Of a DNA stretch of 9,404 nucleotides, positions 1 to 9,404 are shown one piece after another. The notes under the pieces were generated by a model that was not told the origin of the DNA, made no database searches, and saw only the letters and a program-made list of their open reading frames with translations. This DNA is from Planctomycetota bacterium (lineage in GTDB: Bacteria > Planctomycetota > PUPC01 > DSUN01). The stretch covers positions 1 to 9,404 of the forward strand of contig VGYW01000332.1 in the NCBI GenBank assembly GCA_016872875.1. The letters are read 5' to 3'. How positions within the stretch are numbered: position 1 is the first letter of the stretch; each line of letters starts with the position of its first letter. The position numbers and the translations under genes are program-made.

Positions 1-305
1 GCCCCCTTCGGGGGCTTGGATGGGGGGGACGCGCGATCCCAGGGCTCCCTTCGGTCGCCCTGGGCTACGGCTGGGTCGCCCGCGTCGGCGGGCTACAAGG
101 CCCCGAGATGTGGGCAAAGATCAGGGCGAAGCCCTGGGAAGGGGGCGGTAGGTAGGCCAGCCCTGAAAGGGCGTACTATGCGGTTCCGGGCGCCACATCC
201 TGCCCAGGGCGGGTAGTACGCCCCTACAGGGCCAAACCTGGCCGTTCGCCTGTCCCAGGGCTTCGCCCTGGGCTGCTATAGTACGCTCCGTTCGGAGCTT
301 CGGCG
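1..305. repeat. Non-coding cluster of short palindromic repeats
   Basis: No convincing gene lies here. The stretch is a chain of hairpin-forming units: 1-15 (GCCCCC arms, TTC loop), 38-45 with 57-64 (CCCAGGGC/GCCCTGGG), 122-136 (CAGGGC, GAA loop), 254-272 (CCCAGGGC, TTC loop) and 285-298 (GCTCCG/CGGAGC). The CCCAGGGC-type arm recurs three times with different loops, which suggests one dispersed repeat family rather than independent terminators. The small open frame at 16-216 merely reads through these repeats. The first hairpin could also end an upstream gene outside the window. The family identity is inferred; the hairpins are read directly. Confidence 0.75.
160..232. repeat. Inverted repeat with GGGCGTACTA core arms
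   Basis: A perfect 10-bp inverted repeat (GGGCGTACTA at 169-178, TAGTACGCCC at 214-223) sits inside longer imperfect arms (160-178 and 214-232), with a 35-nt loop. A related TATAGTACGC string appears again at 277-286. It behaves like a small mobile or REP-like palindrome. No coding role is visible. Confidence 0.65.
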
Positions 306-355
306 CCGAATGACCTTGCCAGAATCGGGGGCCATACTCGCGCTTCGCCCCGCTC

Positions 356-383
356 TTGACTCCATTGCTCCACAGCCTATACT
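356..383 (+). promoter_or_regulatory. Sigma70-type promoter for the membrane protein gene
   Basis: TTGACT (356-361) is followed after 16 nt by TATACT (378-383); each hexamer is 5/6 to consensus. Transcription would start near 390, giving a leader of about 30 nt. Because the promoter lies downstream of the in-frame ATG at 310, it supports the ATG at 421 as the true start. Confidence 0.65.
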
Positions 384-420
384 GGGACGAAGGCTTTTCT
401 CCACCGCCATCGAGGCGCCC

Positions 421-1200
421 ATGCAGGATTCCGTCCGAACAACCGAGCCGTGGAGGACGCCGTGCGCGGTCCTGGCGCTCTACCTTGGGGCGCTGATCGC
501 CGCAGCGGCGCTCCTCCCATGCCCTGCCGCGAAGACGCACGGGATGCGCCTCGCGCTTTGCCTGCTCGCCATCGAGGTCGCCGGGCTTGCAGTGGCCGCA
601 CCATTCCTTGCGGCCAGGGCGCGGTTGGCCTGGACGGCCAGCACGCTCGCTGCGATGGCATACGCGAGCGTCGTCATCATTGCCCTGGCGGCGCGGGGCA
701 GCGCGCCGCTGGCCGGGCTCCTCTGGTCCCACATCTTCCTTCTCGCCTTCGCGTGGGTGCTCGTTGCCCTCACGACCCTGCTGGTGCGCCTGCGCTTCCG
801 CCCGACGACTTCTCAGGCCGTGGCCACCGCCGTGGCCCTGCTCATGCTCGGACAGGTCTTCTTCGCCAACGGCCTCATCGAGGCGGCGGCGAGCGAGCGA
901 GGCAAGATGCTCGCGATTGATGCGGTCCTCTGGACCAATCCCTGGCTCATCGTCGGCGGCTCCATCCTCCAGGCCGACCCGTTGCGAAGCCAGGACCTCT
1001 ACGAATGGTCGGTGATCATCTACTACGGTTTCCGGTATCCCGGCGCCACCATCGCGTCCGCCTGGGTCAGAACCCTCTTCCTGACGGGCATTTACGCTGG
1101 CTGCGCCCTGCTGCTGCACGGGGCCGCATGGCTCCTCGCGCCCTCCACTCGGCGCACAGCAGCGGTTCAGGCAGTGGACAACAACTGTCCAGACCTCTAG
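421..1200 (+). CDS. Polytopic inner-membrane protein of unknown function (259 aa)
   Basis: The protein is hydrophobic and I do not recognise a catalytic motif. About six membrane helices are visible at roughly residues 15-33, 43-64, 68-90, 97-121, 130-155 and 213-240. A longer loop (about 156-210) with aromatic and acidic residues, including NPWLIVGGSIL and YEWSVIIYYGFRYPG, lies before the last helix. The overall shape resembles small ABC-2-type permease components, but no ATPase partner lies in the window and this is only a resemblance. I chose ATG 421 over the in-frame ATG at 310 because the promoter ends at 383 and a weak GAGG (412-415) precedes 421. The last residues (after about 241) are polar and probably cytoplasmic or unstructured. 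GC-rich third positions agree with a real gene. The next gene starts 153 bp later behind its own control region, so this is probably monocistronic. Confidence 0.7.
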   Translation: MQDSVRTTEPWRTPCAVLALYLGALIAAAALLPCPAAKTHGMRLALCLLAIEVAGLAVAAPFLAARARLAWTASTLAAMAYASVVIIALAARGSAPLAGLLWSHIFLLAFAWVLVALTTLLVRLRFRPTTSQAVATAVALLMLGQVFFANGLIEAAASERGKMLAIDAVLWTNPWLIVGGSILQADPLRSQDLYEWSVIIYYGFRYPGATIASAWVRTLFLTGIYAGCALLLHGAAWLLAPSTRRTAAVQAVDNNCPDL

Positions 1201-1241
1201 CGCCGCCGATCGGCTGAGACTGTGGCGGTCGCCATAAGTGT

Positions 1242-1253
1242 TGGACCAGTCCA
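1242..1253. promoter_or_regulatory. Palindrome upstream of the sigma54 site, possible activator site
   Basis: TGGAC-CA-GTCCA is a perfect inverted repeat centred about 64 bp upstream of the predicted start of transcription (about 1312). Sigma54 promoters need an upstream-bound AAA+ activator, so this is a reasonable candidate for its site. The role is inferred from position and symmetry only; no second full copy was found, though GTCCAGAC recurs at the end of the preceding gene (around 1187-1194). Confidence 0.3.
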
Positions 1254-1285
1254 GACATATGGGTTCATCCCTTCCGCCCAAGCCA

Positions 1286-1301
1286 CGGCACGAGAGTTGC
1301 T
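1286..1301 (+). promoter_or_regulatory. Sigma54 (RpoN)-type -24/-12 promoter
   Basis: The string CGGCACGAGAGTTGCT contains GGCACG, four bases, then TTGCT. This matches the sigma54 consensus TGGCACG-N4-TTGCW except for the first T. The invariant GG (1287-1288) and GC (1299-1300) are exactly 10 nt apart, as required. Transcription would begin near 1312, leaving a leader of about 42 nt before the ATG at 1354. A TTGACT at 1304-1309 has no -10 partner at the right distance, so a sigma70 promoter is less well supported. Confidence 0.6.
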
Positions 1302-1338
1302 CCTTGACTGATGTAGGGAGTGGTCCAGGTCAACTCGC

Positions 1339-1344
1339 AGGAGA
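1339..1344 (+). promoter_or_regulatory. Shine-Dalgarno for the toroid repeat protein
   Basis: AGGAGA lies 9 nt before the ATG at 1354 and fixes that start, which also gives an intact signal peptide. Confidence 0.7.
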
Positions 1345-1353
1345 CTCCGAGCG

Positions 1354-2460
1354 ATGCGCGCGACGTTCCTGACATCTCTTCTTGTTGCTTCTCTCCTGGG
1401 TGGCCGGGCGCTCGGGGAGGCGGCGACCGCCGAGCTGGCCAAGCGGTCGGACGGCAGCATGCGCAGGGCTGCGGAATGGCTCCTCAAGCAGCAGAAGGAG
1501 GATGGGACATTTGGGGGGCCGGCCGAGGTGGGCAAGGCCGCGCTCGTGCTCTCGGCTCTCCTTGCTTCGCCCGACGCCAAGGCCCTTCGTGACGACGCAA
1601 GGGTAAAGAAGGCAGTAGCTTACGTCGTCTCGAAACAGCAGGAGGATGGCTCGATCAACACCCCGGGCGAGCAGGGCCTGGCCAACTACCAGACCGCCGC
1701 CGCCATCTCCGCCCTCGCCGCCTTCGGCGACCCGGCCCACAAGCCTATCATCAACAAGGCCAAGGACTTCCTCCTCAGCATCCAGCACAAGGAGGGGCTC
1801 GACGCCGGCGGCTTCGGCTACAATAGCGACAAGCGCGCCGACCTCTCCAACACGCAGTTCACGCTCGAAGCCCTGAGGGCTGCTGGACTTAAGGAGGACT
1901 CGGAGGCCTTCCAGAACTGCCTGAAGTTCCTCCAGCGCTGCCAGAACCGCTCGGAGTCGAACGACCAGCCCTGGGCCACCAACGACGGCAGCGGCATCTA
2001 CTACCCCGGCTCGAGCAAGGCGGGGGTCATCAAGCTCGCCGACGGCAAGGTCATCTATAAGGGTTACGGCTCAATGACTTACGCACTCCTCCGGGGCTAC
2101 ATCCTCGTCGGTCTCAAGCCCGACGACCCGCGCGTCCAGGCCGCCCAGAAATGGATAACGGAAAACTACACCCTCGAACAGAACCCCGGCATGGAGGGCG
2201 ACCAGAAGCTCCAGGGCATCCTCTACTACTACATGTCTATGGCCAAGGCCCTCTCCCTCCTCAAGACGCCCACCCTCGACCTGCCCAATGGCACCAAGCG
2301 CCTGTGGGCCAAGGACTTAGCGGAGAGGCTAATCTCCCTTCAGGACCCCCAGGGCTTCTGGATCAACAGGGAGATGCGCTGGATGGAGAACGACCCCATC
2401 CTCGCCACGGCCTACGTCCTCCAGGCCCTCTCCGAGTGCCGCGCCATGCTCGCCCAGTAG
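1354..2460 (+). CDS. Secreted prenyltransferase/squalene-cyclase-like repeat protein (368 aa)
   Basis: Residues 1-21 form a signal peptide (positive start, hydrophobic core, ALG before the likely cleavage site), so the mature protein is exported. The rest shows alpha/alpha-toroid repeats of the squalene-hopene cyclase/prenyltransferase superfamily. QxxDG-type motifs occur at 46-54 (QQKEDGTFG), 95-101 (QQEDGSI) and 144-156 (ending GGFGY), with a degenerate one near the C-terminus (LQDPQGFW). Family signatures such as SNTQFTLEAL and DPILATAYVLQAL sit in the expected helix positions. No DxDD cyclase acid motif is visible, and the length is about half that of a true squalene-hopene cyclase, so cyclase activity is unlikely. 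A binding or scaffold role is an inference. The gene starts at ATG 1354 behind a good Shine-Dalgarno and a sigma54-type promoter, and is separated from the kinase gene by 136 bp. Confidence 0.85.
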   Translation: MRATFLTSLLVASLLGGRALGEAATAELAKRSDGSMRRAAEWLLKQQKEDGTFGGPAEVGKAALVLSALLASPDAKALRDDARVKKAVAYVVSKQQEDGSINTPGEQGLANYQTAAAISALAAFGDPAHKPIINKAKDFLLSIQHKEGLDAGGFGYNSDKRADLSNTQFTLEALRAAGLKEDSEAFQNCLKFLQRCQNRSESNDQPWATNDGSGIYYPGSSKAGVIKLADGKVIYKGYGSMTYALLRGYILVGLKPDDPRVQAAQKWITENYTLEQNPGMEGDQKLQGILYYYMSMAKALSLLKTPTLDLPNGTKRLWAKDLAERLISLQDPQGFWINREMRWMENDPILATAYVLQALSECRAMLAQ

Positions 2461-2472
2461 AGGGAGTGGCTG

Positions 2473-2496
2473 GCGCCGGTGCGAACGGCCCGGCGC
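2473..2496 (+). terminator. GC-rich hairpin after the toroid protein gene
   Basis: GCGCCGG (2473-2479) pairs with CCGGCGC (2490-2496) across a 10-nt loop, 12 nt after the stop codon and just before the next promoter. There is no following T run, so it is at best a weak or factor-assisted terminator, or an mRNA 3' end stabiliser. Confidence 0.3.
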
Positions 2497-2511
2497 TGCC
2501 GCGATTGGGGC

Positions 2512-2540
2512 TTGACTCCCCCCTTGTCCCCCGCTACAAT
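2512..2540 (+). promoter_or_regulatory. Sigma70-type promoter for the kinase gene
   Basis: TTGACT (2512-2517), 17-nt spacer, TACAAT (2535-2540). Both hexamers are 5/6 to consensus with ideal spacing, giving a leader of roughly 50 nt before the GTG start. This indicates that the kinase has its own transcript. Confidence 0.7.
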
Positions 2541-2581
2541 GCCCCCCGGTTGGGGGCTGGCCCAAGTTCCTGCCATCCGGT

Positions 2582-2588
2582 AGGGAGG
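2582..2588 (+). promoter_or_regulatory. Shine-Dalgarno that fixes a GTG start
   Basis: AGGGAGG lies 8 nt before GTG 2597. It decides the start of the kinase gene and places the first CxxC of the zinc ribbon at residue 8. Confidence 0.75.
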
Positions 2589-2596
2589 CCCGCGCG

Positions 2597-5500
2597 GTGG
2601 CGAAGCATCCTGCGAAGTGCCCGAAGTGTGGGAGCCGGCTCGAGTTCGAGTCGGCGATTGACGAGAAGCTCCTCTGCCCCGGCTGCCAACTGCTCCTGAG
2701 CATGCCGGGCAAGCACAAGCTCTCCGACAAGGTGGACCCGCTCATCGGCCAATCGCTCGGGGAGTTCGAGGTGGTCGAGCTCCTCGGCCGCGGCGGCATG
2801 GGCGCCGTCTACAGGGCCCGCCAGCCCTCGCTCGACCGCTTCGTGGCCCTCAAGGTCCTGCCGCGGGCAGTCTCGCGCGACGCCAGTTTCGTCGAGCGCT
2901 TCGGCCGCGAGGCCCACGCCGCCGCCGCAGTCAACCACCCGAACATCATCCAGGTCCACGCCGTCGGCCAGGACAAGGGCTTCCAGTTCATCGCCATGGA
3001 GCTCGTGGACGGCGAGAGCCTGTTGGACGTCCTCAAGCGCGAGGGCCGCGTCGCGCCCGACCGCGCGGTGGAGTGGATGAGACAGGCCGCCGCCGCGCTC
3101 GCCGAGGCCCACGCCGCGGGAATCGTCCACCGCGACATCAAGCCCTCCAACATCCTCCTCACCGCCAAGGGCCTCATCAAGGTGGCCGACTTCGGCCTCG
3201 CGAAGCGCGAGGGGATGGACGTCACGGTGACGGCCACGGGCGCGGCCCTCGGAACTCCCCTCTACTTCCCGCCCGAGATGGCGCGGGGCCACCACGCCGA
3301 CCCGCGCTCCGACCTCTACTCCCTCGGCGCAACCTTCTTCCACCTGCTGGCGGGCCGCCCGCCGTTCGAGGGCACCTCCACCGCCGAGCTCGCCGTCAAG
3401 CACGCCAACGACCCCGTGCCCTCGCTCAGGCAGGCCGCGCCGGATGTGCCTGCGGCGCTGGCAGGCGTCATCCAGCGCCTCCTCCGCAAGAACCCCAACG
3501 AGCGGTTCCAGAGCGCCCAGGACCTTCTCGAGCGCCTCAACGCCCTCTCCCCCTCTGGCTCCTTCTCCCCCTCTGGCTCCCTCTCCCTCGGGGAGAGGGC
3601 TGGGGTGAGGGTGCCTGGCTCCCTCTCCCCCTCTGGCTCCCTCTCCCTCGGGGAGAGGGCTGGGGTGAGGGTGCCCGGCGCGGCGGCGGAAGGGAAGCAC
3701 CCTCACCCTACCCTCTCCCCAGGGGAGAGGGACAAGAGGCCGGAGGAGCGCCGCGCTGTCAAGGCGCAATCGCGCAAGAAGGTCCTGATTCTCGCCGGTG
3801 CGGCTGCCGCAATCGTCCTCGTCGTCGTCCTCATCCTCGCCCTTCGCCCCGGCCCCTCTTCCCAATCCGCAATCCGAAATCCGCAATCCGAAATCCCCGA
3901 TGCCCCAACACCTTCCCCCGAGCCGCCCTCGCGCGAGGACGCGAACGCGGAGGTCGTCTTCCGCAACGCCCAGACCATGGCCGCGCGCGGCCGCTGGCAG
4001 GACGCCCAGGCATTCCTCGACCGCCTCCACCTCAAGTATGGCCAGACCGCCTACTATGCCGCGAACAGGGCCGCCATCGAGGCCCTTCAGGCCAAGGCCA
4101 ACTCCATCCTCATGCCCAGCCCGAAGCCGGAGCCGAAGAAGGAAGAGCCGCCAAAGCCCGAGCCCAAGAAAGAAGAGCCGAAGCCCAAAGAGAAAGAGCA
4201 ACCAACCGCCAAGGAAGATGAGGACGCCAAGAAGAAGGCAGAAGAAAAGCGGCAGCGCATCGAGGCCGAACGCAAGAAGCGCGAGGAGGCCGAAGCCAAG
4301 TTCGCCGAAGCCATGAAGCCCATCGAGTCCCTCGTCGCCTCCTGGGACTTCGCCGCCGCCCTCGACACCCTCTCCAAGCTCAACCCTGACTCCCTCTCCC
4401 TCGGGGAGAGGGCTGGGGTGAGGGTGCTTAGCGACGATATCGAGCGCCGCCTCACGACCCGCCGCGACGAGCTTGAGCGCCTTGCGAAGCTCAAGTCCCG
4501 CTTCATCTCCAAGATCACCTCCGCCCAGCCGCCGCTCGACAAGCGTGCCCTCCTCCTCACCGGCCTCAACGGCCCGGTCGTGAAGGCCGACGACAAGGCC
4601 ATCACCGCAAAGGTCGCGGGCACCGACAAGTCCGAGACCTACGACTGGCCGTCCCTCAGCCCGAAGACGGTCCAGAAGCTCCTCGACCTCACCCTCGACA
4701 AGCAGAATGCGGACGATTGGCTCTCTGCTGGCATCTTGCTCCTCTCTTGTTCTGGTCCCCCAACACCTGGCACCCAACCCCCAACACCTTCTTCCGCGGC
4801 GGAGCAAGCCTTCGAGAGGGCCAGATCCCTCGGCGCCCCGATTGACCGATATCTCGATCCTCTGGCCGCCGCCGCCTTTGCCCGTGCGAAGGCCCTGATC
4901 GAGGGGGGACGCGGGGCAGGGCCTGGCCCGAGGGTTTCCGAGGGCACGCCCCGCCTACAGGAGGGCATGAAGGCCCTCGAAGAGCTTGAGAAGAAGTATG
5001 CCTCGACCCCGTGGCTTGTCTCCCACAAAGATGATGTGGCTTCCGCCCGCGAGACCGCCAAGAGCGGCATCGCCGAGTCCGAAGCCGAGAAGCTCTACGC
5101 CGAAGCCGCGAAGCTCTTCGAGAAGAAAGAACTCTTCGACCTGAAGCCGATCATCGAAAAGCTCAAGGCCGACTTCCCCAAGACCCGCCCTGTCACCGAC
5201 GAAACCCGCAAACCACCGTTCTCCGAAATGGCCAAGTCCACCGAAACCCTCGGCATATTCATCACCGTCCGCCAGGACGGCAAGGGTGACTTCAAGACCA
5301 TCCAAGCCGCAATCGACGCTGCGCCAAAACGCAGCTTGATCCTGGTGGAGCCCGGGGCTCCGTATGAGGAGGATCTCCGCATCCCGGCAGAAAAGGAGGG
5401 AATCACCCTGAGGGGCCGCAAAGGCTCTTGGCCGATCGTGCTGTGCTCAAGGCGGACAGCGAAGGGGCAGGGCAGCGAGGCTGAGGACCGGTGCCTTGTC

Positions 5501-6190
5501 CGCGTCAACGCTGCCGGCGTCTCGTTTGAAGGCATGGTGCTCTCGGAGCTTGGCCCTGGTATCGGATCCAACGCGGTCATCTTCGTCCGTGCACCGGGCT
5601 TCCGCCTTGCTGCGGCGGTCGTTCACTCCGAACGTGAAGAGAGTCTGAGTGCCTGGGCCGATGTGGATCTGCGCGATTGCGTTTTCGCCGGCGAGACACG
5701 TTGCGACCGGGGCAAGGTCACGTGCAGGAACACAATCTGGCTCAGGAATGGGCCATCGTCCATCAACCACGGCGGAGCTTTCGAGAACGTCCTCATTCCC
5801 AAGGACACGCTTGAGATCGGCTCACCGTGCGACTTCATCTCCTGCACCGTTCTCGGGTCGCTCTCGTTTCGCACACAGCCCAATGAAGTTAGGGACTGTA
5901 TCATCCTCGGAGGCGTGGGGGCGGCTCAGCCGAACACCAAGGTTGACCACTGTAACCTCTTCACAAAGCAGCAACTATACCAGGGGCTCGCCCGACCCGG
6001 CAAGGGCTGTTTCAGTGCGGACCCCCAGTTCCGCGACCCGGCGAATTTCGACTATCGTCTGAAGCCGACGAGCCCTTGCCGCAAGAAAGCGAGCGATGGT
6101 GGGGACATTGGGTGTCGGTTTACGCCGGAGATGATGGAGGTGCTGGAGAAGGCGCTGGAGCTCCGGAAGAAGGGCATTATCAAGTTCTGA
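2597..6190 (+). CDS. Transmembrane Ser/Thr protein kinase with zinc ribbon and C-terminal beta-helix-like domain (1197 aa)
   Basis: Residues 8-30 hold a zinc ribbon (CPKC, CPGC). A Hanks-type kinase domain spans about 57-312 and looks active: G-loop GRGGMGAVY (64-72), Lys86, Glu105, HRD 178-180 with Lys182 and Asn185, DFG 198-200, PPE 225-227. A repeat-filled linker leads to one membrane helix (396-416). The kinase is therefore predicted to be cytoplasmic and the rest extracytoplasmic. The tail has a TPR-like stretch (about 452-500), a Lys/Glu-rich probable coiled coil (about 505-578), further helical segments, and from about 889 a pectinesterase-type opening (DGKGDFKTIQAAIDAAP) and beta-helix-like repeats ending with DPQFRDPANFDYRL (1142 on). 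Pectinesterase catalytic motifs are not evident, so a carbohydrate- or ligand-binding role is more likely (inference). The gene starts at GTG with a strong Shine-Dalgarno and has its own promoter. Several repeat sequences lie inside the frame. Codon choice becomes less C-biased after about 5330, hinting at a fused domain. Confidence 0.9.
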   Translation: MAKHPAKCPKCGSRLEFESAIDEKLLCPGCQLLLSMPGKHKLSDKVDPLIGQSLGEFEVVELLGRGGMGAVYRARQPSLDRFVALKVLPRAVSRDASFVERFGREAHAAAAVNHPNIIQVHAVGQDKGFQFIAMELVDGESLLDVLKREGRVAPDRAVEWMRQAAAALAEAHAAGIVHRDIKPSNILLTAKGLIKVADFGLAKREGMDVTVTATGAALGTPLYFPPEMARGHHADPRSDLYSLGATFFHLLAGRPPFEGTSTAELAVKHANDPVPSLRQAAPDVPAALAGVIQRLLRKNPNERFQSAQDLLERLNALSPSGSFSPSGSLSLGERAGVRVPGSLSPSGSLSLGERAGVRVPGAAAEGKHPHPTLSPGERDKRPEERRAVKAQSRKKVLILAGAAAAIVLVVVLILALRPGPSSQSAIRNPQSEIPDAPTPSPEPPSREDANAEVVFRNAQTMAARGRWQDAQAFLDRLHLKYGQTAYYAANRAAIEALQAKANSILMPSPKPEPKKEEPPKPEPKKEEPKPKEKEQPTAKEDEDAKKKAEEKRQRIEAERKKREEAEAKFAEAMKPIESLVASWDFAAALDTLSKLNPDSLSLGERAGVRVLSDDIERRLTTRRDELERLAKLKSRFISKITSAQPPLDKRALLLTGLNGPVVKADDKAITAKVAGTDKSETYDWPSLSPKTVQKLLDLTLDKQNADDWLSAGILLLSCSGPPTPGTQPPTPSSAAEQAFERARSLGAPIDRYLDPLAAAAFARAKALIEGGRGAGPGPRVSEGTPRLQEGMKALEELEKKYASTPWLVSHKDDVASARETAKSGIAESEAEKLYAEAAKLFEKKELFDLKPIIEKLKADFPKTRPVTDETRKPPFSEMAKSTETLGIFITVRQDGKGDFKTIQAAIDAAPKRSLILVEPGAPYEEDLRIPAEKEGITLRGRKGSWPIVLCSRRTAKGQGSEAEDRCLVRVNAAGVSFEGMVLSELGPGIGSNAVIFVRAPGFRLAAAVVHSEREESLSAWADVDLRDCVFAGETRCDRGKVTCRNTIWLRNGPSSINHGGAFENVLIPKDTLEIGSPCDFISCTVLGSLSFRTQPNEVRDCIILGGVGAAQPNTKVDHCNLFTKQQLYQGLARPGKGCFSADPQFRDPANFDYRLKPTSPCRKKASDGGDIGCRFTPEMMEVLEKALELRKKGIIKF
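3561..3674 (+). repeat. 60-bp tandem duplication inside the kinase linker
   Basis: Bases 3561-3614 match 3621-3674 at all but one position, giving a 60-bp (20-codon) tandem unit that encodes SPSGSLSLGERAGVRVPG-type residues. Each unit includes the 36-bp palindromic element (3578-3613 and 3638-3673). Within it, CCCTCTCCC and GGGAGAGGG form a 9-bp stem with a TCG loop (3579-3599 and 3639-3659). The unit length is a multiple of three, so the frame is kept. It lies between the kinase domain and the membrane helix. Confidence 0.9.
3698..3731 (-). repeat. Inverted, diverged copy of the 36-bp palindromic element
   Basis: Read on the minus strand, this segment follows the same pattern as the copies at 3578 and 3638: CCCTCTCCCC stem, GGGGAGAGGG, then a GGGTGAGGGTG tail. 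The stem is 10 bp (3711-3720 with 3722-3731). On the plus strand it is translated in frame as HPHPTLSPGER. Confidence 0.85.
3864..3898 (+). repeat. Run of five 7-bp repeats (AATCCGC/AATCCGA/AATCCCC)
   Basis: Five consecutive heptamers alternate AATCCGC and AATCCGA and end in AATCCCC. They are translated as part of SAIRNPQSEIP just outside the membrane helix. The unit is unlike the surrounding C-ending codon pattern and looks like an inserted intergenic-type repeat. It is followed directly by CCCCAACACCTTC (3903-3915), which recurs at 4779-4791. Confidence 0.8.
4391..4426 (+). repeat. Third identical copy of the 36-bp palindromic element in the kinase gene
   Basis: All 36 bases equal those at 3578-3613 and 3638-3673, although this copy lies about 720 bp away in a different part of the protein (residues 599-610, SLSLGERAGVRV). 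The stem is 4392-4400 with 4404-4412. The reading phase is the same as in the other two copies. The insertion follows the coiled-coil region and adds 12 residues. Confidence 0.9.
4757..4789 (+). repeat. C-rich direct repeat (CCCCCAACACCT twice)
   Basis: CCCCCAACACCT occurs at 4757-4768 and 4778-4789, 21 nt apart, so both copies read in the same frame as a Pro/Thr-rich patch (SGPPTPGTQPPTPSS). A shared 13-mer, CCCCAACACCTTC, is also at 3903-3915 in the same gene. It interrupts otherwise helical sequence near residue 725. Confidence 0.7.
4911..4954 (+). repeat. Inverted repeat in a Gly/Pro-rich patch of the kinase tail
   Basis: GCGGGGC (4911-4917) pairs with GCCCCGC (4948-4954). Between them are GGGCC-T-GGCCC (4919-4929) and a direct repeat of CCGAGGG separated by TTT. 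The encoded GRGAGPGPRVSEGTPR breaks an Ala/Glu/Lys-rich helical stretch, as the other inserted repeats do. The downstream GCCCCGCCTACAGG resembles the 221-230 palindrome, so it may be another in-frame intergenic-type repeat; this is tentative. Confidence 0.45.
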
Positions 6191-6210
6191 GCACCATCCC
6201 TCCCGAAGAG

Positions 6211-6234
6211 CCTGCCCTGAGCGTAGCCGAAGGG
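6211..6234 (-). repeat. CCCTTCGGCTACGCTCAGGG-type dispersed repeat
   Basis: On the minus strand this reads CCCTTCGGCTACGCTCAGGG followed by CAGG. It resembles a short repeat widely scattered in environmental bacterial genomes. It lies 20 bp after the kinase stop codon, and its imperfect symmetry allows a small hairpin. The family assignment rests on memory of the motif, not on a search. Confidence 0.55.
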
Positions 6235-6237
6235 TTC

Positions 6238-6528
6238 CAATACACTGGGAACGTCCCAAGTTCTTGAGCCTCCCCGGGCGACGCTCTCCGCGCCGCGGGA
6301 ACGCAAAGGCAAACTCACGTCTGGGGGACCAGTCCCCCAGACCCCCTGGGATTTATCGCATTCGGCCACCGGCACGTCTCCTGGAGGCCAGCGCGGCCAT
6401 TTTCCTGTTGGGGTGCCGGTGGCCCGAAAGCGGAAAATCCTGGGGGTTCGGGGGCAAAGCCCCCGACGCACCGGCCGCAGGCACACCCACGATCTCAAGG
6501 ACTTGGGACGCTGTCAATACACTTGGGA
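6238..6528. repeat. Nested inverted-repeat, MITE-like element
   Basis: Outer arms 6250-6268 and 6494-6512 are inverted copies matching at 17 of 19 positions and enclose a 263-bp unit. Inside are, in order, the perfect palindrome CTGGGGGACCAGTCCCCCAG (6321-6340), a long imperfect hairpin (6341-6375 with 6413-6447) and the palindrome TCGGGGGC-AAA-GCCCCCGA (6448-6466). Just outside the arms, CAATACACT(T)GGGA occurs as a near-perfect direct repeat (6238-6250 and 6515-6528), which could be a duplicated target or a second repeat family. There is no transposase frame, so any movement would have depended on a protein supplied elsewhere. Confidence 0.6.
6341..6447. repeat. Long imperfect hairpin at the core of the 6238-6528 element
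   Basis: Bases 6341-6375 pair with 6413-6447: about 30 of 36 aligned positions match when the arms are compared with two small gaps, including a perfect 10-bp CCACCGGCAC/GTGCCGGTGG next to the 37-nt loop. If transcribed it would form a stable RNA stem on either strand. Confidence 0.7.
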
Positions 6529-6666
6529 GGATAGTCTTGTCCCGCGGCGCCGGGGCGCGTGGCGTCATCCTCCCGAGCGCACTGGAAGCCCTCCGGCCAA
6601 CGCCGTTCGGGCCAGGCTATTCGGGAGGGCGCTTCCGCCGACCACGCGGTGCCGCAAGAGAAGATA

Positions 6667-6680
6667 CGGGCTGAAGCCCG
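6667..6680. repeat. CGGGCTGAAGCCCG palindrome
   Basis: CGGGCT and AGCCCG form a 6-bp stem around GA, followed by CACTACG. It resembles a small palindromic repeat often seen between genes in planctomycete-like genomes. It lies 70 bp before the glycosidase start. Confidence 0.5.
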
Positions 6681-6735
6681 CACTACGAACGGCGAGCGAT
6701 GGGGAGAGGCACCGTTGCATGGCCGTGGCGGAAAT

Positions 6736-6740
6736 GGTGA
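6736..6740 (+). promoter_or_regulatory. Possible ribosome binding site of the glycosidase gene
   Basis: GGTGA, matching part of the AGGAGGTGAT anti-16S complement, lies 9 nt before ATG 6750. A GGGGG (6744-6748) is nearer but only one base from the ATG, too close to serve. The site is weak; the start is supported mainly by the signal peptide that follows it. Confidence 0.4.
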
Positions 6741-6749
6741 AATGGGGGC

Positions 6750-9146
6750 ATGACCCGCTTGGCACCCGCCGCAGCAATCCTCTTCATTCTGTTGCAGGCA
6801 GAGTCCATCGCGGGGGCGCCCGTGGCGCTCGATGCGGGGCACCGGGCGGTGATTGATGAACGCAGGGTGTGGCAGTTGGGGTGCGACGGGGGCACACTGC
6901 TGTCGCGGTGCGGGCTGAGGGTGTGGGGGAAGGAGGGGCTTCAGAATCAGGCGAGCGCGCGGGCCGTCGAGCCGCCGAGCGAAGGGCCGGCAGTCAGGGC
7001 GTTCCACGCGGAGCTCCGCGTGGGGAGCCGGCGGGTGGAGTTCTGGCAGACGCTGACGCCGGTGCCCAGCGGCCTGATGGTGCAATACGCCGTCGCGGCG
7101 GGGGAGCTTGACGATGGCGAGGAGGTGGCGGCGTGCTTCGAGCTGCCGCTGGGGACGTTTGCCGACGCGACGTTCGGCGTTGATGCAGACAAGCCGGTTG
7201 CAGTCCCCGCGCAGAAGGGGGCAGAGCCAAGACTGATCGAGAAGGGTGGCACCAGCCTTTCGGTGCAGCGCGATGGCGGCAGGATCGCGTTCCAGCGGCG
7301 GCCGGCAGGGAAGATCATCGTGCAGGATGGGCGGCACTGGGGGAACCCGTGGCTCGAGGTGCAGCTCTACGCCCGCCGCGCGGCGGGCGACCCGCCGGGG
7401 TGGAGGTCGGTGAGCTTCCTGGTGACAGTGGGTGCGGCGCCGCAGGGGCCGGTGATCGCGGCGGTGGTGCCGGGGAAGGCGGCGGTGGGCTGCGGCGAGC
7501 TCCACGAGGCCGAGGTCTCCTTCTGGGCGCCGTTCGAGAATCCCTACGATCCCGCGCAGGTGGCGGTGTGGGCGGAGACGGAGAAGGGGACAGCGTTTCC
7601 TGGCTTCTACACGCGGGACTACGTGCGGTCGCGGGAAGGGGACGCGGAGCGGCTCAGCCCAGTGGGCCACGGACGCTGGCGCGTGCGGCTGGCGGCCGCG
7701 GAGCCGGGGGCGTGGACGTATGTGGTGAAGGTGCGGACGCCTGGCGGCGCCGCGGAGTCGAAGCCACTCTCGTTCACCGCGGACGCGGGGCGCAGAGGCC
7801 CCGCCCACGGGCAGAGGTTCCTCCGCGCCCCGAAGACGCAAGGGCTCTACCTCGAGACATCCGACGGGCAGCCCTGCTTCCTCATCGGCCACAACTACTG
7901 CTGGCCGCCAGGGAAGGAGCGCACCTACGCGGCCGAGGCCGCCTTCGCGCGCATGGCCGCGGCCGGGATGAACGCCACGAGGCTCTGGCTGTGCAGTTGG
8001 GGGCTGCACATCGAGGGGGAGGAGCCTGACGACTATCGGCTGGACGACGCCTGGCGGCTCGACGCTGTGTTCCGGTCGGCGCGGGAGCGCGGGATTTACG
8101 TGCAGCTCTGCCTCGACAACTTCGCGGACTTCACGACGAAGAAGGGGGCGGAGCGGAACCCGTATCTCGCGGCCAACGGCGGCCCGTGCCAGACGCCCTC
8201 CCAGTTCTTCAGCAATCCGAAGGCCAGAGAGCAGTATCAGCGGCGGCTGAGGTATCTGGCCGCGCGCTACGCCCCGTTCACCAGCCTGCTGGCCTGGGAG
8301 CTCTTCAACGAGGTGTCGCACGCGGGCGACGGGCCGCGCGACGCGGCAGTCGTCGAGTGGGCGGGAAGCTCCGCCGCGCACCTCAAGAAGCTGGACCCCT
8401 ATGGGCACCCTGTGACCATAAGCGTGGGGCTGAGGTCGGATTGGGACGCGCTCTGGCGCTTGCCGCAGATAGACCTCGTGGAGGCCCACACCTACATCCC
8501 GCGCCCGACGGACGGCGCGACGCCGCAGGAGAGCGATTCGCCCACGCTCATCCTCGCCCAGCGCGACGCCCTCGAGGGCCACGGCAAGCCGGTCCTCGTG
8601 GCCGAGTTCGGCTTCCTGGGCACAAAGGAGTTCAACCCCCTCAACGAGGCGGACAAGACGGGCGTCCACCTGCACTCGGCATTGTGGGCCTCGGCCCTGG
8701 GCGGCTGCGCGGGCACCGCCATGCACTGGTGGTGGGACAGCTACCTGGCGGAGCACGACCTCTACTACCACTACGCGGCGCTGGCGGGCTTCCTGCGGGG
8801 CACCGAGCTGCCCGGCCCGCGTTGGGCGCCCGTGCGGAGCAAGGCGGGGAGCCAGCTCCGCGTGGTCGGCTACAAGGGCGCGGAGGCCGCGCTCCTCTGG
8901 ATTCAGCACGCGGCCAACACCTGGCACCGCAGGCTCATCGAGGGGCGGGACCCCGTCGCCATCGGGCGGGCCACCGTCGAGCTCCCCCGCCTCGCCGACG
9001 GACGCTACCGCGTCGAGTGGTGGGACACCTACACTGGCGCGCCCCTGACCCACACCAGCGAGCAGACGGCAGGCGGCACGCTCCTCCTCCGCGTGCCCGA
9101 CCGCGTGCCCGACGTTGCCTGCAAGGTGAGCAGGGTGGAAAAGTGA
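6750..9146 (+). CDS. Secreted DUF5060 / GH5-like glycoside hydrolase (798 aa)
   Basis: A signal peptide (about 1-22, cleavage near IAG/AP) marks it as exported. Residues about 25-250 are beta-rich and unrecognised. About 253-345 match the DUF5060 immunoglobulin-like pattern (FWAPFENPYDP, PGFYTRDY, PGAWTYVVKV). A TIM-barrel catalytic region follows (about 355-690): FLIGHNYCW (377-385), NATRLW with Arg411, WELFNEV with Glu521 as likely acid/base, HTY (580-582), Glu619 in LVAEFGF as likely nucleophile, and WWWD (660-663). A C-terminal beta-sandwich (about 700-798, with YRVEWWDTYTG) completes the layout. It probably hydrolyses a beta-linked polysaccharide or glycoside by a retaining mechanism; the substrate cannot be read from sequence. 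No domain looks broken. Codons in the first 350 residues are strikingly G-ending and later ones more C-ending, which may reflect domain fusion. Confidence 0.88.
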   Translation: MTRLAPAAAILFILLQAESIAGAPVALDAGHRAVIDERRVWQLGCDGGTLLSRCGLRVWGKEGLQNQASARAVEPPSEGPAVRAFHAELRVGSRRVEFWQTLTPVPSGLMVQYAVAAGELDDGEEVAACFELPLGTFADATFGVDADKPVAVPAQKGAEPRLIEKGGTSLSVQRDGGRIAFQRRPAGKIIVQDGRHWGNPWLEVQLYARRAAGDPPGWRSVSFLVTVGAAPQGPVIAAVVPGKAAVGCGELHEAEVSFWAPFENPYDPAQVAVWAETEKGTAFPGFYTRDYVRSREGDAERLSPVGHGRWRVRLAAAEPGAWTYVVKVRTPGGAAESKPLSFTADAGRRGPAHGQRFLRAPKTQGLYLETSDGQPCFLIGHNYCWPPGKERTYAAEAAFARMAAAGMNATRLWLCSWGLHIEGEEPDDYRLDDAWRLDAVFRSARERGIYVQLCLDNFADFTTKKGAERNPYLAANGGPCQTPSQFFSNPKAREQYQRRLRYLAARYAPFTSLLAWELFNEVSHAGDGPRDAAVVEWAGSSAAHLKKLDPYGHPVTISVGLRSDWDALWRLPQIDLVEAHTYIPRPTDGATPQESDSPTLILAQRDALEGHGKPVLVAEFGFLGTKEFNPLNEADKTGVHLHSALWASALGGCAGTAMHWWWDSYLAEHDLYYHYAALAGFLRGTELPGPRWAPVRSKAGSQLRVVGYKGAEAALLWIQHAANTWHRRLIEGRDPVAIGRATVELPRLADGRYRVEWWDTYTGAPLTHTSEQTAGGTLLLRVPDRVPDVACKVSRVEK

Positions 9147-9179
9147 GAGGGAGAGGGAAAGTGAAAGGGCTTGTCTCTC

Positions 9180-9195
9180 GGCTGCGGGAGCAGCC
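9180..9195. repeat. GGCTGC-GGGA-GCAGCC hairpin after the glycosidase gene
   Basis: A perfect 6-bp stem with a GGGA loop begins 33 bp after the stop codon. It is flanked by GTCTCT (9173-9178) and AGAGAC (9211-9216), which can form an outer stem. It has no T run, and may be a dispersed repeat or part of the 3' end of the transcript. Confidence 0.45.
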
Positions 9196-9217
9196 TACGG
9201 TCGCACCTGAAGAGACG

Positions 9218-9246
9218 GGGCGCCGGAGGGGGTGCCTCTGGCGCCC
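9218..9246. terminator. Strong hairpin between convergent genes
   Basis: GGGCGCCGGAGG (9218-9229) pairs with CCTCTGGCGCCC (9235-9246): 11 Watson-Crick pairs and one G-U wobble around a 5-nt loop. Its place between two converging genes fits a shared bidirectional terminator. Neither side carries a clear T run, so the intrinsic-terminator call is tentative. Confidence 0.4.
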
Positions 9247-9287
9247 TGTGAGGCGACAACCTGGCGGGGGTGTCGCGTTGGGTCTCT

Positions 9288-9404
9288 CTACCACTCGTCG
9301 CGCTCGGCCAGGCCAAGAGCGCAAACGTCCAGGCCGCTCGGAAGGGCGATCGAGTAGGCGGAACGGGTCGGCGTGGCCTCGTTACGGCGCCGGCACTTCT
9401 TGCA
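9288..9404 (-). CDS. 3' end of an unidentified minus-strand gene (partial, 38 codons)
   Basis: Reading leftward from the window edge, 38 sense codons end in TAG at 9290-9288. The segment encodes a CKKC pair directly at the edge, then RRRNEATPTRSAYSIALPSG and a tail ending LGLAERDEW. About 84% of third positions are G or C, as in the neighbouring genes, and the frame is uninterrupted to the edge, so I regard it as coding. The CxxC could be half of a zinc ribbon or rubredoxin-like knuckle, and Cys28 of the visible part is a further possible ligand. The start and most of the protein lie outside the window, so no function is assigned. It converges on the glycosidase gene. Confidence 0.5.
   Translation of the reverse strand, partial: CKKCRRRNEATPTRSAYSIALPSGLDVCALGLAERDEW

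Follow-up and report, generated by a model that had tools for sequence, protein, structure and literature searches.

Dispersed repeats of several families lie in frame in linkers and loops of a planctomycete kinase and of unrelated proteins

Introduction

The palindromic elements of Rickettsia are repeats that are translated in frame inside unrelated proteins, and their units are longer than those described here. REPs, by comparison, are usually described as seldom overlapping coding regions (accessible text of PMC12306157). Di Nocera et al. (2013, PMC3733652) did report REPs within ORFs; in the accessible text, O. terrae and R. conorii have most of these, and flexible linkers are suggested for them. 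For the triplex motif TM, the available portion of Holder et al. (2015, PMC4666352) gives all 23 copies of E. coli MG1655 as intergenic. Heptamer arrays are genome-wide in Xanthomonas and Nostoc and over-represented outside genes, according to the accessible text of Rehm et al. (2015, PMC4692102).

We analyzed a 9,404-nucleotide stretch of DNA from a Planctomycetota bacterium (contig VGYW01000332.1, positions 1–9,404; hereafter the window). An earlier note, made from the sequence alone, had proposed that several unrelated repeats were inserted into a pre-existing kinase gene. Our analysis supports this proposal through the absence of segments from orthologues, the dispersal of the repeats, and parallel in-frame copies elsewhere.

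Results

Repeats inside the kinase gene

The frame of the Ser/Thr kinase gene runs from 2597 to 6190 without a stop, and all the repeats lie within it, as the earlier note had read them. The protein comprises a Cys-rich N-terminus, a kinase domain (aa 57–310), a hydrophobic membrane helix (~aa 393–416), a helical region, and a beta-rich C-terminal region. Because the kinase domain ends at aa 310, all the repeats of the gene are C-terminal of it, in agreement with their earlier placement outside the domain. Four repeat kinds share this one frame. A 36-bp element of putative TM type has 4 copies, and the others are a CCCCAACACC-type repeat, an array of heptamers, and a palindrome with a GTAG tag. 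The features of the window are as follows.

2597–6190, forward strand: Ser/Thr kinase coding sequence, GTG start, 1197 aa (open reading frame, Pfam, orthologues)
3543–3587, forward strand: 18-bp partial tandem duplication CCCTCTCCCCCTCTGGCT, 2.5 copies, running into TM-type copy 1
3555–3679, forward strand: 60-bp tandem duplication, 96% match, enclosing TM-type copies 1 and 2
3578–3613, forward strand: TM-type copy 1, 36 bp, read SLSLGERAGVRV (repeat search, frame check, folding, Table 1 of PMC4666352)
3638–3673, forward strand: TM-type copy 2, identical to copy 1 (repeat search, frame check)
~3698–3732, reverse strand: TM-type inverted diverged copy, read HPHPTLSPGER (repeat search, folding)
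3863–3896, forward strand: heptamer array AATCCGM, read QSAIRNPQSEI (tandem search; array type also in genome G157)
3903–3927, forward strand: CCCCAACACC-type repeat copy 1 (repeat family D8)
4391–4426, forward strand: TM-type copy 3, at a loop of 9 residues in 9/19 aligned homologues
4758–4803, forward strand: CCCCAACACC-type repeat copies 2 and 3 (starts 4758 and 4779), at a loop of 9 residues in 14/19 homologues
4911–4958, reverse strand: REP-2 variant, GTAG tag, stem GCGGGGC/GCCCCGC, expanded loop, reverse reading ..EGTPRLQ
6750–9146, forward strand: glycoside-hydrolase-like coding sequence (DUF5060 and cellulase-like), the next gene, which houses the second REP-2
7785–7808, reverse strand: exact 24-bp REP-2 GTGGGCGGGGCCTCTGCGCCCCGC, in frame as AGRRGPAH, between the DUF5060 and cellulase-like domains

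The three identical 36-bp copies were recovered at the starts given before (3578, 3638, and 4391), and each is in phase 0 relative to the start at 2597. Also recovered were the inverted diverged copy, the heptamer run, and the C-rich repeat, which proved to be of the CCCCAACACC type (family D8; starts 3903, 4758, and 4779). Folding revealed that the inverted copy makes the same hairpin as the 36-mer; dinucleotide shuffles fold as well in 3/200 cases for the 36-mer and in 1/200 for the inverted copy. The common codon phase of the three 36-mers, to which the note had drawn attention, holds as an observation. Copies 1 and 2 form one 60-bp tandem duplication, so the same-phase 36-mers represent two independent events rather than three, and 5/6 frames of the 36-mer are stop-free; we therefore dropped the shared phase, weak as it is, as evidence for insertion.

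The further palindrome that had been suspected at 4911 has its arms at 4911–4917 and 4948–4954 and, outside them, CTAC (= GTAG) at 4955–4958. Arms, tag, and membership of the REP-2 family stand, but its fold is unexceptional (37/200 shuffles fold as well). The tag-plus-arm pattern has 2 matches in the window, a number that 22/200 shuffles reach. Because fold and pattern are both unexceptional, the case for this palindrome is its REP family membership. The window thus has two REP-2 units, a variant in the kinase gene and, in frame in the gene that follows, an exact copy, which is identical to copies among those listed for G157.

A further interspersed repeat, of the GCCCTGAGCGTAGCCGAAGGG type, was seen outside the kinase gene at 6214–6240; the same type also occurs at L004 near 5190, L014 near 278, and L140 near 4458, and peptides resembling it (LRQGSGQA / LRPGSGQA) lie within the homologue P0003 and the L190 kinase. 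Upstream, the window has a perfect 18-bp inverted repeat (122–139 / 253–270) with an arm spacing of 113 nt.

Filled and empty sites in orthologues

A protein search found 65 homologues, and those with a source name are mostly from Planctomycetota; the closest that spans the whole C-terminal query (P0002) is 58% identical. We aligned 19 of the 65 and judged the repeat types at their loops from peptides. Comparison of the aligned proteins revealed that (i) the loop before RLATRR has exactly 9 residues in 9/19 and an insert in 10/19, which at the peptide level is TM-type in 1 (the window protein), REP-2 in 5, PSGGY-type in 2, and CAACACC-type in 2; (ii) the loop after AGIL has 9 residues in 14/19 and inserts of four segment kinds in 5/19; (iii) the inter-helix loop has 11 residues in 11/19 and REP-2 in 8/19; and (iv) several orthologues carry the same repeat type at the 4911–4958 site and at the heptamer site that follows the membrane helix. 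Since the segment kinds vary among orthologues at one loop, different repeats struck the same loops in different lineages. The insertions at the heptamer and 4911–4958 sites may predate the lineage of the window gene, because several orthologues share the repeat type there. A check proposed earlier, that orthologues should lack the segments, was thus borne out in part: inserts are cleanly missing from many orthologues, but the heptamer and REP-2 sites are common to several.

A structure model of the window protein, predicted from the 19 aligned sequences, had a mean pLDDT of 74.6 and a pTM of 0.42. In this model, TM-type copies 1 and 2, the inverted copy, and the heptamer array fall within aa 320–442, where pLDDT is below 50 except at one residue. 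TM-type copy 3, the later CCCCAACACC-type repeats, and the REP-2 variant overlap short inter-helix dips in pLDDT (aa 604–606, 724–729, and 776–778).

Peptide signatures of the repeats were found in 39/102 proteins, 20 of them with at least 2 types (P0066 removed), a count that is partly circular because the signatures were picked after the alignment had been viewed. Reversed signatures gave 1/102, and 50 local shuffles gave at most 6/102. A search with the linker (residues 312–440) returned four proteins including the query. P0067 and P0068 are Planctomycetota-type kinases with repeat-type linkers, matched through the membrane helix plus heptamer peptide and through the TM-type peptide, respectively. 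The fourth is the DsbD protein of Superficieibacter electus (P0066), in which residues 179–289, between the DsbD N-terminal and membrane domains, form a run of 20-residue units with S-I-S/A-L-S/A-PGERAGVR. At the peptide level, these units appear to be the TM-type peptide in the same phase and with the same unit length, in another phylum (an enterobacterium).

The TM-type element

Comparison with Table 1 of PMC4666352 revealed three TM blocks in the 36-mer at 3578–3613, CCCTCTCCC, GGGAGAGGG, and GGGTGAGGG, with short loops. The 36-mer thus matches the G/C-rich intrastrand triplex motif TM, nearest to TMECO type B, and we use the triplex label as a sequence match, the folding having covered the hairpin part.

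The element is held by 5 of 12 distant-relative genomes (63 copies in total); for 16/63 copies, the frame is open for 60 codons or more on each side. By codon usage, 3/60 clusters from four genomes were called in frame (G001 2/7, G006 1/12, G005 0/8, and G008 0/33; the single G004 copy was left out) and 57/60 were not, with a classifier that overlooks copies with repeat flanks (L063, L069, L081, L082, and L085). Window 3541–3740 matched 22 plasmid records; 20 were listed, 2 without and 18 with annotation, and 18/18 annotated listed matches overlie no listed feature, in a gene table that is incomplete.

Where TM-type copies are in frame, Pfam places one within the MoeA_N domain, others between the domains of an Hsp70-like protein and of an iron–sulphur protein, and one after the O-antigen ligase domain of another protein; a TM-type-bearing dynamin-like protein and two related membrane proteins with one TM-type site in common have Pfam matches under the curated cut-off. 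Two related membrane proteins from different genomes (L069 and L081) carry the element at the same place, and some in-frame insertions may therefore be inherited.

REP-1 and REP-2

Peptides of the kinases pointed to two 24-bp GTRG-tagged palindromes, REP-1 and REP-2, that recur in two related genomes (G004 and G157). REP-1 (GTGGCACAGCCGCCCTCGGCTGTG) gives the peptide VAQPPSAV, and REP-2 (GTRGGCGGNNNNTCNNNNNNCCGC) reads VGGASLPR forward and GAETPRLQ in reverse. A search for the REP-1 core that allowed 1 mismatch gave 16 copies in G004, 36 in G157, and none in 8 other genomes; the reversed pattern, as control, gave 0. REP-2 has 50 copies in G004 and 417 in G157 (controls 0 and 1); elsewhere it is at control level, with 0–3 matches in 6 other genomes and 1 in 10 more. 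A kinase of G004 (L132) has a REP-1 copy in its juxtamembrane linker.

The 8-pair stem of REP-2 is formed in 95.8% of cells, with 19 cells changed on both sides, among 18 distinct sequences picked from lists and with the four outer pairs set by the search pattern; 0/500 shuffles attain either value. The tag is mostly GTGG, and GTAG also occurs. As in the GTAG REP super-family, the units are palindromes within 20–40 bp with an unpaired GTAG-type tag, and copy number is high in both genomes. The super-family is mainly extragenic, which is the case for G004 (3/46 clusters in frame) but not for G157 (38/59).

Y1 transposase genes were found in G157, G004, and G001 (36 matches), with no match in G005, G006, and G008. 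In the 30 of 36 matches whose loci were examined, REP-1 or REP-2 was present at 1/13 loci in G157 (~0.15 expected per locus) and 0/4 in G004. Spread driven by RAYT is therefore not supported, since the REPs are not clustered near Y1 genes.

Genic share and reading phase

Flanks of the REP clusters were scored with codon usage trained per genome, which superseded an early GC3 classifier (21/50). The 59 clusters from G157 comprise 38 in frame (64%), 11 one-sided, flanked by a gene on a single side, and 10 intergenic, and none is out of frame between same-strand coding flanks; they derive from 61/417 REP-2 copies, mostly on first-listed contigs and hence non-random, and from 27 REP-1 copies found with a stricter pattern. 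The 46 clusters from G004 comprise 3 in frame, 38 intergenic, 2 one-sided, and 3 at contig edges; of the 3 in frame, the one within a peptidase (L131) probably matches the pattern by chance. At the same loci, random positions were called in frame in 415/650 cases (64%) in G157 and 297/480 (62%) in G004, and shuffled loci in 0/650 and 0/480, respectively. Fisher tests gave 4e-10 for G157 versus G004, 1.0 for G157 versus random, and 5e-14 for G004 versus random. Thus, the REPs of G157 show no measurable gene avoidance, whereas those of G004 avoid genes almost completely. The classifier overlooks copies near gene ends: IspD L168 and L173, and also L179, were called one-sided.

The in-frame sense copies of G157 are in phase 0 in 37/38 cases (28/29 clusters; binomial 9e-13 per cluster), and antisense in-frame copies use all phases. 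The codon preceding a sense copy ends in T in 37/40 (two of the 40 from G004); in flanks of this kind G or C predominates at third positions, so this T is probably part of the element. Among the 102 proteins, VGGASLPR-phase REP-2 gave 34 matches (strict pattern), VAQPPSAV-phase REP-1 gave 11, and rough patterns for the other two sense phases gave 0. REP-2 occurs 5 times in one antisense phase; the phase patterns are rough, and the antisense REP-1 pattern overlooks RRAAVPHG, which is present in three proteins.

These data bear on the explanation that the segments are selected protein features, namely flexible or proline-rich juxtamembrane and interdomain linkers, with the repeat-like DNA secondary. 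The near-constant reading of sense copies as VGGASLPR or VAQPPSAV (37/38) points to a degree of selection, either for the peptide or for the insertion phase, and heptamer and REP-2 segments return at the same site in several orthologues. However, the same DNA units lie outside genes (38/46 clusters of G004 are intergenic) and in unrelated proteins, the REP stem has compensating changes, and one loop carries different repeat types among orthologues. We consider this explanation unlikely.

Two other ideas were rejected. The GTGG tag, which contains no TAG stop, could have been a key to gene entry, an idea that the GTAG counts do not support (10/61 in-frame copies in G157, 1/27 other copies in G157, and 8/62 non-in-frame copies in G004, with 5 overlapping-locus copies excluded). 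Recruitment specific to kinases was discarded as well: the 38 in-frame clusters of G157 are spread over 36 open frames, and Pfam finds a kinase domain in two of them (L186 and L190).

Unrelated and essential proteins

The effect of insertion is not peculiar to the window kinase. Repeats are in frame inside or between the Pfam domains of MoeA, an Hsp70-like protein, IspD, AAA_25, CCG, a HemD fusion, and aspartyl-tRNA synthetase (AspRS). The AspRS of G157 contains a head-to-head REP-2 pair, and the segment is 34–35 residues longer than in 8/8 relatives with both flanks, the closest being 73–74% identical (G022 gave the N-terminal part only and two genomes no match). IspD with REP-1 is longer by 9 residues than 6 and by 11 than 3 of 9 aligned relatives; G004 yielded an N-terminal IspD fragment only. 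A restriction-modification methylase gene (L193:2003–2146) was seen to have three in-frame REP-1-type copies before the methylase domain, and direct repeats with ~92 bp spacing lie near a kinase gene of G157 (L139:5183–5459).

Such in-frame repeats could be products of assembly or binning, with collapsed repeats or chimeric joins in the gene. The window protein is known from one contig, and several TM-type-bearing contigs stop close to a TM-type copy, which indicates that repeats do break assemblies. Nevertheless, the same loops have inserts in contigs of different sources, the reading frame is nowhere broken, and the insert is present in the sole G157 match to AspRS at E <= 1e-40. An artefact is hardly credible on these grounds.

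Heptamer arrays

A search for the AATCCGM array gave 96 matches in G157, against 0 for the control, and 0–8 in 11 other genomes. From 20 fetched loci, 19 arrays were classified (one locus had no array by the pattern used): 6 are in frame, 8 one-sided, 4 between opposite-strand genes, and 1 at an edge. Dispersal in related genomes thus supports insertion for three repeat types, TM-type, REP-2, and heptamer.

Local slippage or low complexity, rather than insertion, would also yield tandem segments, and the three tandems of the gene (60-bp, 18-bp, and heptamer) resemble slippage products. For the TM-type and REP-2 units this account is contradicted, since these units have matches among the dispersed repeat families of other genomes, something that slippage within one gene cannot create. 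As the origin of the segments, slippage is very improbable; it is possible for array expansion after insertion and for the CCCCAACACC type.

Discussion

The data are best explained by dispersed elements that very probably landed one after another in a kinase gene that already existed, in its loops and disordered linkers, and that are retained there because their length keeps the frame and the peptide is tolerated. The segments are in frame and absent from orthologues; TM-type, REP, and AATCCG units are dispersed; model confidence is low at the segments; and the same behaviour is seen in unrelated, even essential, proteins. Observations that go against this explanation are that simple neutrality does not predict the one-phase bias of sense copies (37/38), that TM-type copies are rarely in frame in the tested genomes (3/60 clusters), and that REP-1 and REP-2 are not clustered near Y1 genes.

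The most likely course of events is as follows. Triplex-type TM repeats, GTRG-tagged REPs, and heptamer arrays would insert widely; out-of-frame and fold-breaking copies would be lost by selection, and copies with a length divisible by three would survive in loops as near-neutral inserts. The TM-type element may then expand through slippage, giving the 60-bp and 18-bp duplications. To account for the phase bias, a further rule would be needed, one that governs insertion or one by which selection acts on the peptide.

We give even chances to a broader reading, in which the REPs of one Planctomycetota lineage would no longer be extragenic, would insert without gene avoidance and as one-phase loop peptides, and would steadily lengthen the loops of ordinary and essential proteins, forming a genome-wide source of protein segments, with kinase linkers gathering several families. 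The same REP family has almost complete gene avoidance in one member of a class (G004) and none measurable in another (G157), and this contrast makes it testable whether REPs are extragenic by insertion preference or by selective removal. It also offers a natural experiment on the tolerance of essential-enzyme loops, such as those of aspartyl-tRNA synthetase, for foreign peptides, and a case of supposedly non-coding repeats turning into protein sequence. A literature search found no paper on the repeat peptides, and the accessible text of the RepRanger paper contains neither "intragenic" nor "planctomyc". As far as the open literature searched shows, three findings are new: TM copies read in frame, a protein family in which a single loop has taken up several families of repeat, and a genome with gene-indifferent REPs.

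The likeness to Rickettsia palindromic elements that the earlier note had drawn is apt, in that palindromic repeats in frame within unrelated proteins are found here too. It is a likeness by description only, and several unrelated repeat families in one gene, in a different phylum, distinguish the present case.

Among described systems, the GTAG REPs of PMC3733652 share with the REPs here a palindrome with an unpaired GTAG-type tag and frequent head-to-head pairs. In-frame intragenic REPs are already known from the accessible text of that paper, and gene-indifferent REPs are a variant new here; relative to that text, G157 differs in a genic share equal to random, one sense phase, and no Y1 linkage, and the REPs of G004 are extragenic. 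The heptamers of Xanthomonas and Nostoc (available part of PMC4692102) are likewise arrays spread over the genome, but with the unit GGGNATC instead of AATCCGM, for which 6/19 arrays are in frame. For TM, the second loop CTG of the 36-mer is near the type B loops C-C-G, T-C-G, and C-T-G in the accessible portion of PMC4666352, and inverted pairs occur in E. coli and in the window alike. In contrast to E. coli MG1655, in which the same portion gives TM as always intergenic, one gene of the window has four in-frame copies of the putative TM element, and in-frame copies are also present in other Planctomycetota proteins.
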